Of a stretch of 60,292 nt of DNA, positions 4,201-50,961 are shown piece by piece. Position numbers and translations under genes: made by a program. Source of the DNA: Candidatus Gastranaerophilales bacterium. GTDB lineage: Bacteria > Cyanobacteriota > Vampirovibrionia > Gastranaerophilales > Gastranaerophilaceae. Under the pieces are notes generated by a model, which saw only the letters and a list, made by a program, of their open reading frames with translations, ran no database searches and was not told where the DNA came from. The stretch's first letter is position 1. Every line of letters starts with the position of its first letter. The stretch lies in contig CALUQN010000012.1 of NCBI GenBank assembly GCA_944322945.1, positions 1-60,292 of the forward strand. The letters are read 5' to 3'.

Positions 4201-7200
4201 GTCTATCCCCTCAAGTTCTTCTTTTGTAAAGTTAGACAGCTTAACCATTTCATCAAAAGTCAGCCCGCGTTTTTTCATATTTTCAGTAGGATTGTTACGG
4301 ATATCAAGGTAGTTGTTATAAGTTTCATCGTCCATTTTTACTAATACGTCCAGATTCCAGAAAGTAAAATCATTTTCATTGACATTATGTAGGATATCTC
4401 TTTCTTTTGCGAGCGCGTATTCTGTATCAGGGAGTGTAGCAAGCAGTCTAATTTGCAGGCCTGTTAATGATTTATCCTGCAAAAGTCCGCGTTCCAGCAT
4501 TGCTGTATACTGTCCATCAGTGAATGGAGTGGAAAAGTTTTGTGCAAGGTCAATTCTTTCTACAATAGTTAGATTTAAAGACGGGTCCTGCAGTTCGGTA
4601 CGGGATTTAAGTGCTGACAAATTACTTGTATATACCCTTTGTGCTACGTAAATCCAATCGTCTTTTGTCAAATTCATGTTGAGAAGATAATCATTGTCTT
4701 CTATTATTTCATCTATTCTATAGGTATTGGTTGCAACATAAATTGCGTCTTCTTTAGATAAATTCGTATTTTTTAATTTGTTGTATGCATCAAAATATGT
4801 ATCCGTTGCATGCGCCAATCTTACAATTTGATCACCTGTCAGAGTTTTATCTTCCAATAACTTGCGATTTATTACATTGTTTTCATATTTATTAAGCTCC
4901 ATATAGCAAAGACTCTTAATATTATCCATGTTAAGACGTTCATCTTTTAACAGATAACTCCGTTCTTTGAAAGTGTCGCTGTAACGCATATTGTATAAGC
5001 TTGTCAACTCACGTTCAAGAAGTTTCGGGTTTTCTTGTGCAAGTATTCTGGATATGTATTCTTTCAGGTGCGGGATATCGTGTGTTGTTGCCATTTCCAC
5101 CGCTGTAATATAGTCTGACGCCCAGGATTGGGTTTGGGTCAGTATTTTATCGAACATATCACGCTGCTCATCGGTTTTTAACTGTTTTACAGTCCTAAGA
5201 ATATCGGATTGATATATCTGGCTGCTATTCAGTTTTTCATAGTAATCAAAATCTCTGTCTTTTCTGAGAGTTACAATTGTATCTATGATTCTATTCATAT
5301 CATAAACATCTATTGGGTCTGTTATTTCACTTTCAAGTTTTTTGAGCAGTGCATTCTGACGTTCGCCAAGCCCCAGTGTTTCTACCGGATATTTTTCTGG
5401 GGCGTCAAAATAATTATAAAATTTTTCTGCAAGCTGAACTTCTTCAAGGAGTTCTTTCGGATTTGCGTTCTCAAAATCATCGAATCTGCAGAGCATAAAA
5501 TCAGCTTTTTCCATGTTAGAATAAACATATTCGCCGTTTATATCTTTCTTCATAAGGATTGCGAAAACTTCCGGTACTTTGGAGTAGAGTTTATAAAACT
5601 CGTTTAATTCCTCACTGTTTCTAAATTCTATAATTTCTTCATCAGTAACAGTTTCATTTCCTTTTCGTCTTAATGTTACTACAAAATTAATCAATTCATC
5701 TTTGAACGTATTTTCGTCCATATCTAACAATTTAGTATTGAATTCATCAGGTGAGAGACCTTTTAGAGAACTTGTTAAATTTGCATCATTGTTTGCACGC
5801 GGCGACAATTCATCATCTTCAGGAGCTCTGGTGTACAGGGATTCTCCGTCGTCTGTACGGAGTCGTGTTTCAAACGGATTAGTTCCGCGTTCTTTCAACG
5901 CATTAAAGATTTCCCTCATTTCAATCTCATCTTTTGCATAATCTGCCACGGTTTCAAAGTCTTTATCCGGCAAATCTGCTCTTACTTGTCCGGCAATTTG
6001 GGAATTTTGGATTATGTGAGGGTTTCTGACAGGAAGTTTAAAAATTTCTTCCGGCATCCCGAGTTTCTTCAGAACTTCTTTAAATTCCGGTGAATATTTG
6101 CTCATATCGCCCTCTGCGGCTACTGCAAGAAATTCATTACGGGAGTTGTACGCGTAACTAATATGTGCGGGATGAATGCCGGCTTTTAGAAATTCTTCTT
6201 TGTATTTACAGTTTTCATAATCAAGTCGGTTCAGCTGTAAGCTGCCTAATCTTACGTTCTTCTTAGGCGCGATTTCCGCAAAAAGTCTGTTCATTTCCTC
6301 ACGTGCTTTTTGTGAAAGCGGCATTCTGTCATTGAGGTGCATCATCTCATGTCTCAAGACATGATGAATACTTGCTTCTGTTCCGCCGTTGAGCCTGATT
6401 GTTGCGCCCATTTGCTGTGTCTCTCCGCCTGCTCGTGAACCGTATGCTGAATTGTCGTCTATATAAATTTTATTTATTGTACTCATATCAAGCACCCGCG
6501 GATAGGAGGCGTTGCCGCCTGTTGCATCTTCCCAGTCTTTGTATTCCTGCTCAATGAGCTTTATTTCGGCAGCTGCATCTTCGCTTTTTGCTGATAAAAA
6601 GATTTTTGAATTATATTTTTCCGAAATTTCTGTACATTTATCTTTGACTGCTTGCGGCAGGTCAAGATTTTTTATGTACATTTCTTTGTACATATAATCT
6701 GCGATGTCATTTTTCTGTGCAGAGCCGGCAAGTTCTTTGAGAGCTTCTGTTTTCTGGGCTTGAATAAAATCCTGCACAAGATTTTGCTGGGCTTTTGTAG
6801 CTCCGGTATCCTGTTTTCCTGTCTGCGCTTCGGCTATAAATTCTTCAAATTTTTGGGCTGTTTCGGGGTCATTTTCCCGTAAAAAGTTCAAATATTCGAC
6901 AGGTGTCGGGTCTTTTAAGTCGCCTGTAAGAGGTCTCTCCGTTACATATCTTGTGTAATCCCCGCGCAGAGTGTGATATGCGTCTGCAACCCTGTTCAGT
7001 TTACTTAAAATTTCCAGTCTGTCTTCGCCTGTCAGATACGGGTCATCCAGTTCTTTTGCTCTTTCCAGTTCGTCTTTTATGTATTTGTTAATTTTCGCAT
7101 CGTTAATATTTTCAAGGTTAAATTGTAGCTCTTCAAGTTTTGCCAGTTCCTGCCGGTTCAAGTCACCCTCATTAAACGCTTTTTCTGCAATATCACGAAG

Positions 7201-26100: not shown

Positions 26101-26119
26101 CCCAAAAACTACCAGATCA

Positions 26120-26158
26120 GGTAATTGAATAAGGTGTATGAATTACGTTTAATATAAT
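26120..26158 (+). promoter_or_regulatory. Conserved upstream block with TATAAT, sRNA copy 1
   Basis: The block GGTAATTG...GGTGTA...AATTACGTTTAA followed by TATAAT (26153-26158) is nearly identical in copy 2 (47829-47866, minus). A canonical -35 is not obvious. Conservation upstream of the putative start argues that the promoter was duplicated with the RNA. Confidence 0.5.
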
Positions 26159-26163
26159 TAAAT

Positions 26164-26224
26164 CTTTTTCATACTTCCAGCTATTCTTAATTCCAACGAG
26201 CCTTTTTTTGAGGCTCTTTTTTTT
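26164..26224 (+). ncRNA. Candidate duplicated small RNA, copy 1
   Basis: This would be an RNA of about 60 nt starting after the TATAAT. It contains CTTTTTCATACTTCCAGC and TATTCTTAATTCCAACGAGC and ends in GAGCCT-TTTTTTG-AGGCTC followed by eight T. The 5' part is identical in copy 2 on the other strand at 47768-47823, while the terminator loop differs there. No reading frame of useful length exists inside. It ends 16 bp before the DUF4186 gene, so here it could also act as a leader attenuator. Confidence 0.55.
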
Positions 26225-42925: not shown

Positions 42926-43408
42926 TTATTTAGCAGAAACAGCTTTTTTAACTTCAGCAGTCAGGTCAGCACCGCCGTAAAGGACAGCACCTTTAGCAAC
43001 AACTACAGTGTAGCCTTTTGCTCTGGCTGTTTCGGCGATTTTTTTAGAGATAGATTCGTCTATCTGTGACAATTTAGAAGTGTAAGATTTTTCATATTTT
43101 TCTCTTTTAGATACCAATTCTTTGTTGTATTTTTCTTCAAGAGATTTTTTCTTCTTTTCATCAGTTGTAGCAGCAACGTCTTTTCTTGCTTTTTCAATGA
43201 AAGTAATCAAATCTTTAGCGTTAGCTTCTTGTTCTTTTTTAAGAGCCTGGACAGCAGGTGATGCGTTAACAACAGCCTGGACGTCAACAACAGCCACAGA
43301 AGCAGGTGCAGGTGCAGCCGGAGCAGATGTAGTTGCAGCAAATGCTACTGATGCACAAAGAGTACATGCAACAACCCCGCTTAACAAAAATTTGAATTTG
43401 TTTGTCAT
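42926..43408 (-). CDS. OmpH/Skp-family periplasmic chaperone
   Basis: The protein is 160 aa. The signal peptide covers residues 1 to about 24 (ends ASVAFA). It starts, after an Ala/Pro linker, with the family strand VAVVDVQAVVNASPAVQ, then has a long charged helical hairpin (KKEQEANAKD... to KSYTSKLSQID) and ends with a strand region (YTVVVAKGAVLYGGADLT). Skp holds outer-membrane proteins unfolded in the periplasm. It is divergent from the outer-membrane TpsB-like gene, a sensible pairing. Confidence 0.88.
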   Translation of the reverse strand: MTNKFKFLLSGVVACTLCASVAFAATTSAPAAPAPASVAVVDVQAVVNASPAVQALKKEQEANAKDLITFIEKARKDVAATTDEKKKKSLEEKYNKELVSKREKYEKSYTSKLSQIDESISKKIAETARAKGYTVVVAKGAVLYGGADLTAEVKKAVSAK

Positions 43409-46409: not shown

Positions 46410-47750
46410 ATGGATTGGGCAGAAAAGGATTTGAAATACATCTGGCACCCGTGTTCTCAGATGAAAGATTACGAAGAACTTAAACCGATAGTGATAGACC
46501 ATGCTCAAGGCATAAACCTGTATGATGTTGACGGGAATGTTTATAAAGATGTCGTAAGTTCATGGTGGTGCAATCTTTTAGGACACTGCAATCCTCGGAT
46601 TAACGCGGCTGTAAAAAAACAGATTGACACACTTGAACACGTAATTTTTGCAAACTTCAGCCACAAAACAGCGATTACATTGTGCGAAAAATTGTCAAAA
46701 GTTCTGCCGGAGGGTTTGTGCAAATTTAATTTTACGGACAACGGCTCTTCAGCTATTGAAGCTGCGATGAAAGTAAGTTTTCAATACCATTATCAGACAG
46801 GCAATCCTCAAAAGAAAAAATTTATGGCGCTTTCTGACGCCTACCACGGAGAAACAATAGGCGCACTATCTGTTGGCGGTGTGGATTTGTATTCTGAAAT
46901 TTACAAGCCGATTTTGCTTGATATAACAAGAATACAAGGACCTGATTGTTTTCGCTGTCCTTACGGAAAAAATAGAGAAGAATGTAATTGTGAATGCATT
47001 GAACATGCCGAAAAAACTTTTGAAAAATACGGAGACGAAACGTGTGCGCTACTTGTAGAACCTCTCTTGCAGGGGTCTGCAGGAATGAAAGTTTATCCGC
47101 CTTTGTATTTGAAAAAATTGCGCGACCTGTGTGATGAATACAATGTTCATCTGATAGCAGACGAAATAGCAACGGGTTATGGCAGAACCGGCAAAATGTT
47201 TGCCTGCAACCATGCCGGCATATCGCCTGATATTATGTGTCTGTCCAAAGGATTAACTGGCGGTTACATGCCTATGGCAATATTTGTAACTACCCAAAAG
47301 ATTTATGATGCGTTTTACGCAGACTACAACTGCGGCAAAGCCTTTATGCACAGCCACACTTACAGCGGGAACCCGCTTGCATGCTCTGCAGCTATTGAAG
47401 TTTTGAATATCCTTGAAGATGAAAAAATTATCGAAAAAGCATGCGAAAAAGCTAAATATTTTAATCAACTAATCAAAGAAACTTTCCTCCATCATAAAAA
47501 CGTCGGAGAAGTTCGTTCCATAGGTCTTATCAATGCTATAGAACTTGTTAAAGAAAAAAATACAAAAGAACCGTTTGATTCAAAATTAAGAACGGGCTAT
47601 CAAATCTATAAAAAAGCGCTCAAAGAAGGAGTACTTTTGAGACCTTTAGGTGATGTAATTTATTTCAACCCGCCGTTAATTATTGAAAAAAATGACATGG
47701 ATTTTGTGGTAGAAAAAGCCTATAAGTGTATGAAAGACATTTTAGGCTGA
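46410..47750 (+). CDS. bioA: Adenosylmethionine-8-amino-7-oxononanoate aminotransferase
   Basis: The protein is 446 aa. It makes DAPA from KAPA, with S-adenosylmethionine as amino donor. The PLP-binding lysine is in CLSKGLTGGYMPMAIF; other features are IWHPCSQMKDY at the start, VVSSWWCNLLGH and FTDNGSSAIEAAMKVSFQY. AAGGAG lies before the ATG. bioB and bioF are not in this window. Confidence 0.95.
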   Translation: MDWAEKDLKYIWHPCSQMKDYEELKPIVIDHAQGINLYDVDGNVYKDVVSSWWCNLLGHCNPRINAAVKKQIDTLEHVIFANFSHKTAITLCEKLSKVLPEGLCKFNFTDNGSSAIEAAMKVSFQYHYQTGNPQKKKFMALSDAYHGETIGALSVGGVDLYSEIYKPILLDITRIQGPDCFRCPYGKNREECNCECIEHAEKTFEKYGDETCALLVEPLLQGSAGMKVYPPLYLKKLRDLCDEYNVHLIADEIATGYGRTGKMFACNHAGISPDIMCLSKGLTGGYMPMAIFVTTQKIYDAFYADYNCGKAFMHSHTYSGNPLACSAAIEVLNILEDEKIIEKACEKAKYFNQLIKETFLHHKNVGEVRSIGLINAIELVKEKNTKEPFDSKLRTGYQIYKKALKEGVLLRPLGDVIYFNPPLIIEKNDMDFVVEKAYKCMKDILG

Positions 47751-47767: not shown

Positions 47768-47823
47768 AAGAAAAGAGCCCTTTCGGGCTCGTTGGAATTA
47801 AGAATAGCTGGAAGTATGAAAAA
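47768..47823 (-). ncRNA. Candidate duplicated small RNA, copy 2
   Basis: On the minus strand the same 5' region as copy 1 follows a TATAAT (47829-47834), through CTTTTTCATACTTCCAGC and AATTCCAACGAGCCC. It ends in GAGCCC-GAAA-GGGCTC and TTTTCTTT. Between the two copies the about 90-bp block differs at only a few places before the terminator, whose loop is quite different but whose GAGCC/GGCTC stem is kept. It ends 17 bp past the bioA stop and is convergent with it. Confidence 0.55.
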
Positions 47824-47828
47824 GATTA

Positions 47829-47866
47829 ATTATATTAAACGTAATTTCTACACCATAAACAATTAC
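47829..47866 (-). promoter_or_regulatory. Conserved upstream block with TATAAT, sRNA copy 2
   Basis: TATAAT at 47829-47834 and GGTAATTG at its upstream edge match copy 1 (26120-26158). The remaining gap to 48060 has a TTGACA at 47888 reading rightward, a possible -35 for the glycogen-synthase-like gene, with a poor -10 (AAAAAT, 17 bp on). Confidence 0.45.
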
Positions 47867-47991
47867 CCAACTGCGCTATTTTAGGGGTTGACAGGCATTT
47901 TTTCTTGTGCAAAAATTTATCTGCATTTCCTATAGTGTTTATTAAAAATAAATAAAGAATTGTAACAAAAATACGAGGAGAAATTTTTTGC

Positions 47992-48060: not shown

Positions 48061-50961
48061 ATGAGCAATGACATTACAACAACAAACCTACTAAGTTCAT
48101 CTGCGTTCAAAAAAATGCAACAGGCAGAAACTTCAAAACAACAACCGGCAGTAACCGCTCCGATTGTTCAACAACCGGCTGCCCAACAGCCATCACCTCA
48201 ATTGCAGCCACAACCTTCAGCTGATACATTCAATCAAACGGCTGCAAACAACATGCCAAAGGCATCATTTGGCAAATTCGCAGAAAAATACAGCGGGATT
48301 GCTGCCCTTGCAATATCTGTTATCGGACTTCCGGTAGTCTACACACAAGCTAAAAAATCAAGTTCAAAAACCGTAAAAGCTATGCAAGAAGCTCTTGATG
48401 ATATAAAAAATATAAACATTAAAAAAGAAATAGAAGAAGCAATTTCAAAACTCAACCTTCCAAAAGCCGACGCTTCCGGAGAGGCTAAAGGCAGTACAAA
48501 CGCATTCCCTGCGTCAACATTCCTGACAAGCATGTTTATCGGGATTGGCTCCGCGCTCGGCATAAATGAATTTGTAAAAAATAACAAAGAAACACTCAAG
48601 CAAAACGGATTTAAGGAAGAAGATATAAATACAGCGTCAAAAACTGCAAGTGACATTTTGAATAAGTCCGAAAACGCCCTCAACACCGCAAACGGAATTT
48701 CCAGTGCAGCAAGCGAAGCGAAAGCCATTGCTTACGAAGCTAAAAACGCAGCCTACGGCGCACAAAATACCGTAAATAGCTTTGACAGCAGAATTAATGA
48801 AGCTAACCAGCGTGCAATAGATGCAGTTAAAGCAACCGAACTCGGACTTGACCCGCTTATGCAGCAATATACTGTAAGACACTTTGACCTGAACCTCTTG
48901 CAGGTATTAAACTATGCTAAAAAAATCGACAATAGAAAAACCGGCGAAACACTTAACAGTATTCATAACGCTGCAATCTCCCGCCTGGACAGAACTGCTG
49001 CTCAAACTATCCGCGATATAAAAGCATACAAAGAAAAATTCCCTGAATTAACCTCAACCTGGTCTCTGACAGCCGAATATGCCCCGATTAAAACAGGCGG
49101 CTTAGGCGTTGTTCCGGTTGATATTCAGGATAACTTTGTAAAACTCGGCATTGATACACCAACATTCATCCCGATGTATCTGCAAAAAAATAAATCCGAA
49201 TTTATGGAACTTCCGAACAATGAATACAGATATACATATAACGGCAAAACCTTCAACCTTAGAAAAGCCGCCGAAACCACTACACACGTATTCAGAAACG
49301 GTCAGACTAAACCTGAAAAAATTGAATACTACGTAACGGAAGAAAGTATTCCAGACAGCGACAAAAAGAAAACTCTTGTATTTGTAAAATCAAGAGATTA
49401 CTTCAACGATAATATCTACGATTCAACAACAAACGCAGAAGAAACCGAAAGATTTGCACTCTTCACAAAATCTGTTTATAAACTTGCAAAACTCAAGGTT
49501 AATATGGCTCTCACCGATCCGAATGAGAAAAATCCGAAAACAGGCATCTCTAACCTCAAAATCTGTGATAAAGAAGCCTTTGACAAAATAAAAGCACCAA
49601 ATTCAATGATTCTTAACGATTGGCACGCTGGTTCAATGGCAAGCTTATTAAGATACCGTGCGCCAATGGAATACAACTACAGCGAAATTTCCAAGAAAAC
49701 ATTTGAAGCACTGAAAGATATGCCGCTCCTGATGATTGGTCACAACCTCAACTGCCAGGGCAAATCCAACGACGGTTCAGGTTCGCTGCTGAGTAAAAAC
49801 AGAGTTACTGAAAATATCATCAATACACTCTTTGACAGCTACGCAATTGCAATCACAGAACACGCACACAGCGGAATTTCAGGCGAAAATGATGATATGT
49901 GCAACACTGTCCTGATGAAACGCAGAACAGGCGATAAACACTTTAACCACCTCTTTAACGGGGTCGCACTCTCTGATTGGTTCGTTCCTGTATCCAAAAA
50001 TTACACTACCGAAGTCATAAATGACCCGATGAAGTCCGGCATTTTGTACCCGCTCCTGCAAAGACGACAGGACAGCGGTACAATTTCCGGTACCATCAAC
50101 GGGCTTGACAAAAACAAAGTCGATATGCACGCGATTGCTCACAAAAACTTTGTTAAAGGGCTTGACCTTGCAGAATACGACCAGAATACCGGAATTGATA
50201 AGGTTATGGAACTGAGAACAGAAAACAAAGGCAGATTCTATAACGCATTTATAAAACCGATAATGGACGGAACCCTCGATAAACCGGAAGTGGTAGGCAG
50301 CAACGTTAACATCTCCGAACAAGATTTTGTAGACGCACCGGTAATATCATTTGCACACAGACTAACCGACCAGAAAGGTTTGTCAATCATGAAAGGCGCA
50401 ATCTTCAGATTGTTTGACAACTGGGATGAGGTATTTCCGGGCAAGAAAATGCCGTTCTTTATTGTCGGCGGACCTCCGGAAGCAGCAGAAGAATTGCAGC
50501 ACCTTTATGACCTGAAAAACGGTGATTACGGTAAAAACAAAGAACGCTTGAACCATGTTCTTGCACTGAAAGGCAATATGCCGAACCCTGCAATCATGGC
50601 AGCAAGCACCTTCTTCTGCGCACCGTCAACTTATGAACCTTGCGGACTGACTCAGGGTGAATGTTTTGCTAAAGGTACACCTGTCATCACAACCGATGTC
50701 GGCGGATTCCACGATACAATTGTCGATGGCAAAACAGGCTTCCTTGCACCTTACGTCAGCGAAGAATCCTTCTACAACAAGCTTGTTGAAGCTCTCAAAA
50801 TGTACTTTGAAAGACCTGAAGATTACAAGAAAATGGTACAAAATGACCTTGAAATCGACTTCAGCTGGGTTCAAAAAGATAAAAACGGTCCGATATTTGA
50901 ATACACCGACAAACTCGGATTTGACAAAAAAGACCTGCCGGATCTTGCGGCTGCGGCATAA
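48061..50961 (+). CDS. Glycogen/starch synthase-like GT5 protein with long N-terminal extension
   Basis: The protein is 966 aa; GlgA is about 480. I chose ATG at 48061 (weak GGG site). Residues 1-70 are Gln/Pro-rich, 77-95 a hydrophobic helix (YSGIAALAISVIGLPVVY), then helical sequence with a second hydrophobic stretch (about 148-170) and an Ala-rich coiled region to about 270. The GT5 catalytic part starts near 340: AEYAPIKTGGLGVVPVDIQD (ADP-glucose loop), LNDWHAGSMA, and at the end PSTYEPCGLTQGECFAKGTP and GGFHDTI. Large inserts lie in the N-terminal catalytic half. It would add glucose to alpha-1,4-glucan; the extension suggests attachment to a membrane or to partners. No glgB, glgC or glgP is nearby. 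Confidence 0.85.
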   Translation: MSNDITTTNLLSSSAFKKMQQAETSKQQPAVTAPIVQQPAAQQPSPQLQPQPSADTFNQTAANNMPKASFGKFAEKYSGIAALAISVIGLPVVYTQAKKSSSKTVKAMQEALDDIKNINIKKEIEEAISKLNLPKADASGEAKGSTNAFPASTFLTSMFIGIGSALGINEFVKNNKETLKQNGFKEEDINTASKTASDILNKSENALNTANGISSAASEAKAIAYEAKNAAYGAQNTVNSFDSRINEANQRAIDAVKATELGLDPLMQQYTVRHFDLNLLQVLNYAKKIDNRKTGETLNSIHNAAISRLDRTAAQTIRDIKAYKEKFPELTSTWSLTAEYAPIKTGGLGVVPVDIQDNFVKLGIDTPTFIPMYLQKNKSEFMELPNNEYRYTYNGKTFNLRKAAETTTHVFRNGQTKPEKIEYYVTEESIPDSDKKKTLVFVKSRDYFNDNIYDSTTNAEETERFALFTKSVYKLAKLKVNMALTDPNEKNPKTGISNLKICDKEAFDKIKAPNSMILNDWHAGSMASLLRYRAPMEYNYSEISKKTFEALKDMPLLMIGHNLNCQGKSNDGSGSLLSKNRVTENIINTLFDSYAIAITEHAHSGISGENDDMCNTVLMKRRTGDKHFNHLFNGVALSDWFVPVSKNYTTEVINDPMKSGILYPLLQRRQDSGTISGTINGLDKNKVDMHAIAHKNFVKGLDLAEYDQNTGIDKVMELRTENKGRFYNAFIKPIMDGTLDKPEVVGSNVNISEQDFVDAPVISFAHRLTDQKGLSIMKGAIFRLFDNWDEVFPGKKMPFFIVGGPPEAAEELQHLYDLKNGDYGKNKERLNHVLALKGNMPNPAIMAASTFFCAPSTYEPCGLTQGECFAKGTPVITTDVGGFHDTIVDGKTGFLAPYVSEESFYNKLVEALKMYFERPEDYKKMVQNDLEIDFSWVQKDKNGPIFEYTDKLGFDKKDLPDLAAAA

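Follow-up and report, generated by a model that had tools for sequence, protein, structure and literature searches.

A multicopy family of small RNA genes in the Gastranaerophilales with a conserved core and a putative trans-acting role

Several bacterial small RNAs are encoded in multiple copies and driven by an activator, as exemplified by Qrr in Vibrio, whose promoter is of the sigma-54 type, and by RsmY/RsmZ. In cyanobacteria, the nearly universal RNA Yfr1 (54-69 nt) has an ultraconserved, pyrimidine-rich segment that is left unpaired ahead of its terminal stem-loop, with the ultraconserved 11-mer ACUCCUCACAC and two stem-loops flanking the unpaired stretch (PMC2190773). Of the described systems, Yfr1 is the closest analogue of the Gastranaerophilales genes analyzed here, in terms of size, near-universality in a related lineage and an unpaired ultraconserved stretch. 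However, neither of its defining features, ACUCCUCACAC and the two stem-loops, was found, and identity with Yfr1 was rejected: ACUCCUCACAC is absent from the Gastranaerophilales RNA, whose 33-nt core is another sequence, and this RNA has no 5' stem-loop and occurs in several copies per genome. The likeness to Qrr and RsmY/RsmZ lies in the several copies and the one common upstream activator element, with no sequence relation claimed, and the genes differ from Qrr in that neither a sigma-54 type promoter nor Hfq was found.

No Rfam family reached the threshold for this RNA. Gut-1 (RF01706), likewise an RNA of gut metagenomes, gave a weak match over the terminator hairpin only, on the opposite strand and with the core unmatched (15.7 bits versus a gathering score of 50), and was rejected. 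In addition, a literature search found no description of a small RNA from Gastranaerophilales. Like trans-encoded small RNAs, these genes have a promoter-like region and an intrinsic terminator of their own and do not depend on their neighbours, and they appear to represent a new family of trans-acting small RNA, for which any more specific mechanism is one that we infer.

The gene beside bioA and its paralogues

The window, i.e. the whole analyzed stretch of 60,292 nucleotides from a Candidatus Gastranaerophilales bacterium, contains two copies. According to the sequence layout, copy 2 is a complete small RNA gene on the minus strand (47768-47877), running from an operator-like palindrome through a -10 box and a 33-nt core to an intrinsic terminator, and copy 1 (26110-26224, plus strand) has the same layout:

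47860-47877, minus strand: operator-like element of copy 2, AGCGCAGTTGGGTAATTG (family consensus TAcCCAnntGGgTAATTG from 72 copies)
47829-47834, minus strand: -10 box TATAAT of copy 2, read from the sequence, with no recognisable -35 box
47794-47826, minus strand: conserved 33-nt core AUCUUUUUCAUACUUCCAGCUAUUCUUAAUUCC of copy 2, at the predicted RNA 5' end (putative start site), unpaired in the fold
47768-47790, minus strand: intrinsic terminator of copy 2, with stem 47790-47775 and T-rich tail 47774-47768
26110-26127, plus strand: operator-like element of copy 1, TACCAGATCAGGTAATTG, assigned by the family consensus
26153-26158, plus strand: -10 box TATAAT of copy 1, read from the sequence
26162-26194, plus strand: 33-nt core of copy 1, identical to that of copy 2 by sequence comparison
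26198-26224, plus strand: intrinsic terminator of copy 1, differing from that of copy 2 in loop and lower stem

The two copies align with 81% identity over 127 bases, and the 21-mer CTTCCAGCTATTCTTAATTCC occurs in the window exactly twice, at 26174-26194 (plus) and 47794-47814 (minus), where shuffles expect 0.00. A preliminary description of this DNA had recognized a duplicated small RNA gene, which is borne out by an order-wide family with its own promoter and terminator. Its interval for copy 2, 47768-47866, holds the contents described, but the upstream limit has to be moved, as the palindrome (47877-47860) lies only partly inside. Similarly, the second copy in the window stands, but the genome total is three instead of two, as a divergent paralogue with the plan common to copies 1 and 2 is present on contig C22. 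This third copy, UACUUCCAACAAUACUUAAUUCC (G000 contig C22:6186-6300; L108:3882-4003), is positioned at the lysC locus, which carries the divergent copy here versus a canonical copy in other genera; the change is common to all four species of the genus.

The terminator of copy 2 reads GAGCCC-GAAA-GGGCTC (47790-47775) followed by TTTTCTTT, and that of copy 1 reads GAGCCTT-TTTTT-GAGGCTC; both stems, and with them the previously noticed GAAA loop in copy 2 versus the T-loop in copy 1, are directly seen in the sequence. The predicted fold of copy 2 has an energy of -12.6 kcal/mol (z -3.1), and the TATAAT at 47834-47829 is compatible with a predicted RNA start near 47822-47826.

As described earlier, copy 2 is convergent to bioA, the gene of a class-III aminotransferase, which ends at 47750, leaving 17 bases before the end of the T-tract at 47768; the predicted RNA of copy 2 and the bioA coding sequence do not overlap. 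The next minus-strand ORF past bioA (at least 110 aa, outside plus-strand genes) is found at 42926-43408, in agreement with the earlier remark that a same-strand downstream gene occurs only far beyond bioA. Divergent from copy 2, at 48061-50961, lies a starch-synthase-type glycosyltransferase gene whose product has a Q/A-rich N-terminal extension of ~300 residues with predicted transmembrane-like stretches.

Conservation, distribution and neighbourhood

Comparison of 72 aligned copies from 45 or more genomes revealed that the 33-nt core is nearly invariant. The main variants are CCAGC/CCAAC and, in the third copy of the genus, a changed 5' half, and two copies in genome G024 have an extra base between CAU and ACUUCC. 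The terminator is kept in 72/72 copies by 54 different stems, which vary in length and all run into a T-rich tail, and a perfect stem with at least three GC pairs is present in 67 of the 72, versus 0.6% of shuffled downstream sequences. In the predicted folds of canonical copies, the terminator hairpin alone forms and the core is wholly unpaired. A fixed, free core combined with a freely exchangeable terminator is the pattern of a stand-alone RNA gene; the GAAA tetraloop is one of many stem and loop solutions and has no evident meaning. Two coding interpretations were rejected: a small ORF, as the core of the window copies contains no ATG, GTG or TTG, and an antisense ORF, as the frame ATG AAA AAG ATT... 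is not kept between copies 1 and 2.

The family was detected by BLAST in 45 of 59 relatives, and a sequence-only model, run on 382 genomes of the class, detected it in 279. In f1, the window's own family (Gastranaerophilaceae), all listed genomes are positive except G006 and G380. The family of genes is also present in f4, f6 and f7 (class-wide model search) and in f2 and f5 (BLAST), and the sequence-only model did not find it in f3 or other class families among the 382 genomes. In a sample of the phylum, the 62 matching genomes all belong to f1 and the other 84 gave no match, under the stricter filters of the class and phylum searches, which weak homologues may escape. Copy numbers range from 1 to 8 per genome, with mostly one to three in f1 and one in the listed outgroup families, which suggests that the gene was probably duplicated inside f1. 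Where record names are informative, they denote Candidatus Gastranaerophilales or cyanobacterial gut MAGs, except for L277 (CAMORE010000078.1), which contains the exact core and is titled uncultured Acinetobacter; this is probably a mislabelled or mixed MAG.

Two close arrangements of copies were observed. Genome G181, with 8 copies, has two on the same strand ~1.2 kb apart (L228:5329-5351 and 6499-6521), flanking a prepilin-like (FTLAEVLITLGIIGVVAA) gene, and L082 (G030:C69:65287-65668) contains two head-to-head copies about 260-300 bp apart, flanked by related genes in mirror image, i.e. an inverted duplication.

Genomic context differs widely among the copies. Downstream of 71 copies, 54 gene families are represented, with 28 of the genes on the same strand and 43 convergent, which indicates that there is no fixed cis partner, and 53 of 72 copies have a divergent gene upstream. 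Recurrent sites comprise the small-protein/lysC locus (the genus's third copy), gcvP/DUF4186 (copy 1) and bioA/glycosyltransferase (copy 2, a location kept in the genus's four species). A further one, used in f2, f4 and f5, is where a dnaA-like gene ends; the lysC and dnaA labels were assigned from the sequences without a family search. A cis-acting role, either as leader or attenuator of the downstream gene or as an antisense regulator dedicated to bioA or to the convergent neighbour of each copy, could be suggested by copy 1, which ends 16 bases ahead of a same-strand ORF (DUF4186), and by copy 2 with its convergent position. We consider it very improbable, in view of the diversity and orientation of the neighbours, the strong terminator ahead of any downstream gene and a core that is the same whatever the neighbour. 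The cis-leader in particular was rejected, since no same-strand downstream gene is conserved, which upholds the earlier argument against a pure cis-leader. The label 'antisense to bioA' is accurate as a description of position; as a function it is not supported, as copies elsewhere lie beside lysC, gcvP, dnaA and other genes.

Promoter element, predicted pairing and competing explanations

The operator-like element is held at a nearly constant distance from the core: measured from the end of the best match to TAcCCAnntGGgTAATTG, the core's TACTTCC lies 43-44 nt further on in 52 of 72 copies and 41-47 nt further on in 66. TAATTG is the most constant part of the element. A -10 box occurs in most copies, and no -35 box is found. 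Searching 39 genomes for the operator, 25 nt and a -10 box returned mainly the small RNA promoters plus scattered others; the simplest reading is that the activator may be largely devoted to the small RNA. One such combination, with the same operator, -10 box and 25-nt spacing, precedes the gene of a short secreted-type protein (MKKILVIFALLLVTAAGCFAF...) at L146:1500-1762 (G004:C2). Sites of NarL/LuxR-type regulators can resemble the palindrome; the presence or absence of such a regulator was uninformative, as it is present in 59/59 genomes.

The best explanation, which we regard as probable, is that each copy is a free-standing gene whose product is an antisense RNA that acts in trans, is controlled by an activator and uses its core to pair with translation-start regions. 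A DNA-binding activator would bind the palindrome TAcCCAnntGGgTAATTG near position -48 and bring RNA polymerase to a promoter that has a -10 box and lacks a -35 box, and a non-coding, trans-acting transcript of ~55-60 nt would end at the intrinsic terminator. Its unpaired, pyrimidine-rich 33-nt core, with CAUACUUCC as the candidate pairing stretch, would pair with mRNAs around the ribosome-binding site and start codon and thereby block or alter translation, and the extra copies may add dosage or give partly different control. None of 29 genomes (G000-G046 relatives, almost all of the order) matched the Hfq model PF17209, which a divergent cyanobacterial-type Hfq could escape; the RNA was not assigned to the Hfq-dependent class, and because Hfq was not found, pairing is proposed to be chaperone-free or to proceed via another protein.

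The complement of the core, GGAAUUAAGAAUAGCUGGAAGU-AUG-AAA-AAG-AU (GGAAGU-AUG-AAA-AAG-AU), resembles the translation start of an MKK-type (often secreted) protein, with GGAAG nearer to the AUG than a usual Shine-Dalgarno sequence. Target prediction covered ~430 kb of sequence from the genome itself, together with stretches of relatives. Among 1,796 predicted start regions, 130 contain a complementary match of 9 nt or longer, versus ~35 expected from coding interiors; this lies inside the range of shuffled cores (mean 67, maximum 149), so base composition explains much of it. Of 30 shuffled cores, 29 had a weaker mean predicted pairing with the 1,796 start regions than the real core, and the top duplex (-28.8 kcal/mol) falls within the shuffled range (best shuffle -29.4). 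Predicted pairing is thus only marginally better than that of shuffled cores, and the targets are candidates. In two copies, the inserted base of G024 would break continuous pairing over the Shine-Dalgarno sequence and AUG.

The most suggestive single candidate is a gene that we take to be DUF1796-like. It carries GGAATTAAGA(A/T)T in the start region of three genomes, G000, G001 and G010 (TGGAATTAAGAT or GGAATTAAGAAT), and G010, examined because of the G000 match, also has TATGAAAAAG. We regard this gene as a lead and not as proof. It was rejected as an order-wide target, being patchy (9/39 genomes), and in G000 the complement sits at the end of the preceding ORF. Prepilin genes were rejected as a target class, with only one in about 430 kb of own sequence.

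A search with 18- and 19-mer complements (up to 3 mismatches) found no long complementary target conserved across the order; matches outside the small RNA genes were scattered, and those inspected lay mostly in coding sequence, e.g. atpB. The lack of a conserved mRNA target would also suit a protein-binding decoy, in which the unpaired core would not pair with mRNAs but use its two UUCC motifs to titrate an RNA-binding protein, as CsrB/RsmZ RNAs titrate CsrA. The constant spacing of the two motifs, the conservation of the whole 33-nt core, which is longer than most antisense seeds, and the near-exclusive operator, recalling the GacA-type control of decoy RNAs, point in the same direction. However, there are just two short motifs, neither within a hairpin loop, and the last (second) UUCC is missing in three copies, and we consider a decoy rather unlikely. 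Far less likely still is a mobile or repeat element that multiplies by copying itself and has no role in regulation. The occurrence of up to 8 copies at many locations, two of them close together in one genome, could be read in this way, but most genomes have only 1-3, syntenic copies are retained across species, terminators diverge around a fixed core, and neither terminal repeats nor an associated transposase was seen around the window copies. In addition, the exact core had no match in IMG/VR, and phage and plasmid collections gave none.

Significance for the Gastranaerophilales

The antisense reading can be extended to a more speculative proposal, to which we give little credence at present, that one activator acts mainly for a multicopy, apparently Hfq-independent RNA that globally masks the start codons of MKK-type secreted and envelope proteins in most of the order. 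If true, this would amount to a master switch at the post-transcriptional level, undescribed in this lineage.

Most of what is known about the Gastranaerophilales, uncultured relatives of cyanobacteria that live in the gut, comes from metagenomes. For 33 nt to be strongly conserved while fully unpaired, with Hfq undetected, is unusual and raises the question of what constrains it. The exact coordinates, the promoter element and the candidate seed make the RNA testable in existing metatranscriptomes, and its conservation and near-universality in the main family mark a core regulatory function.
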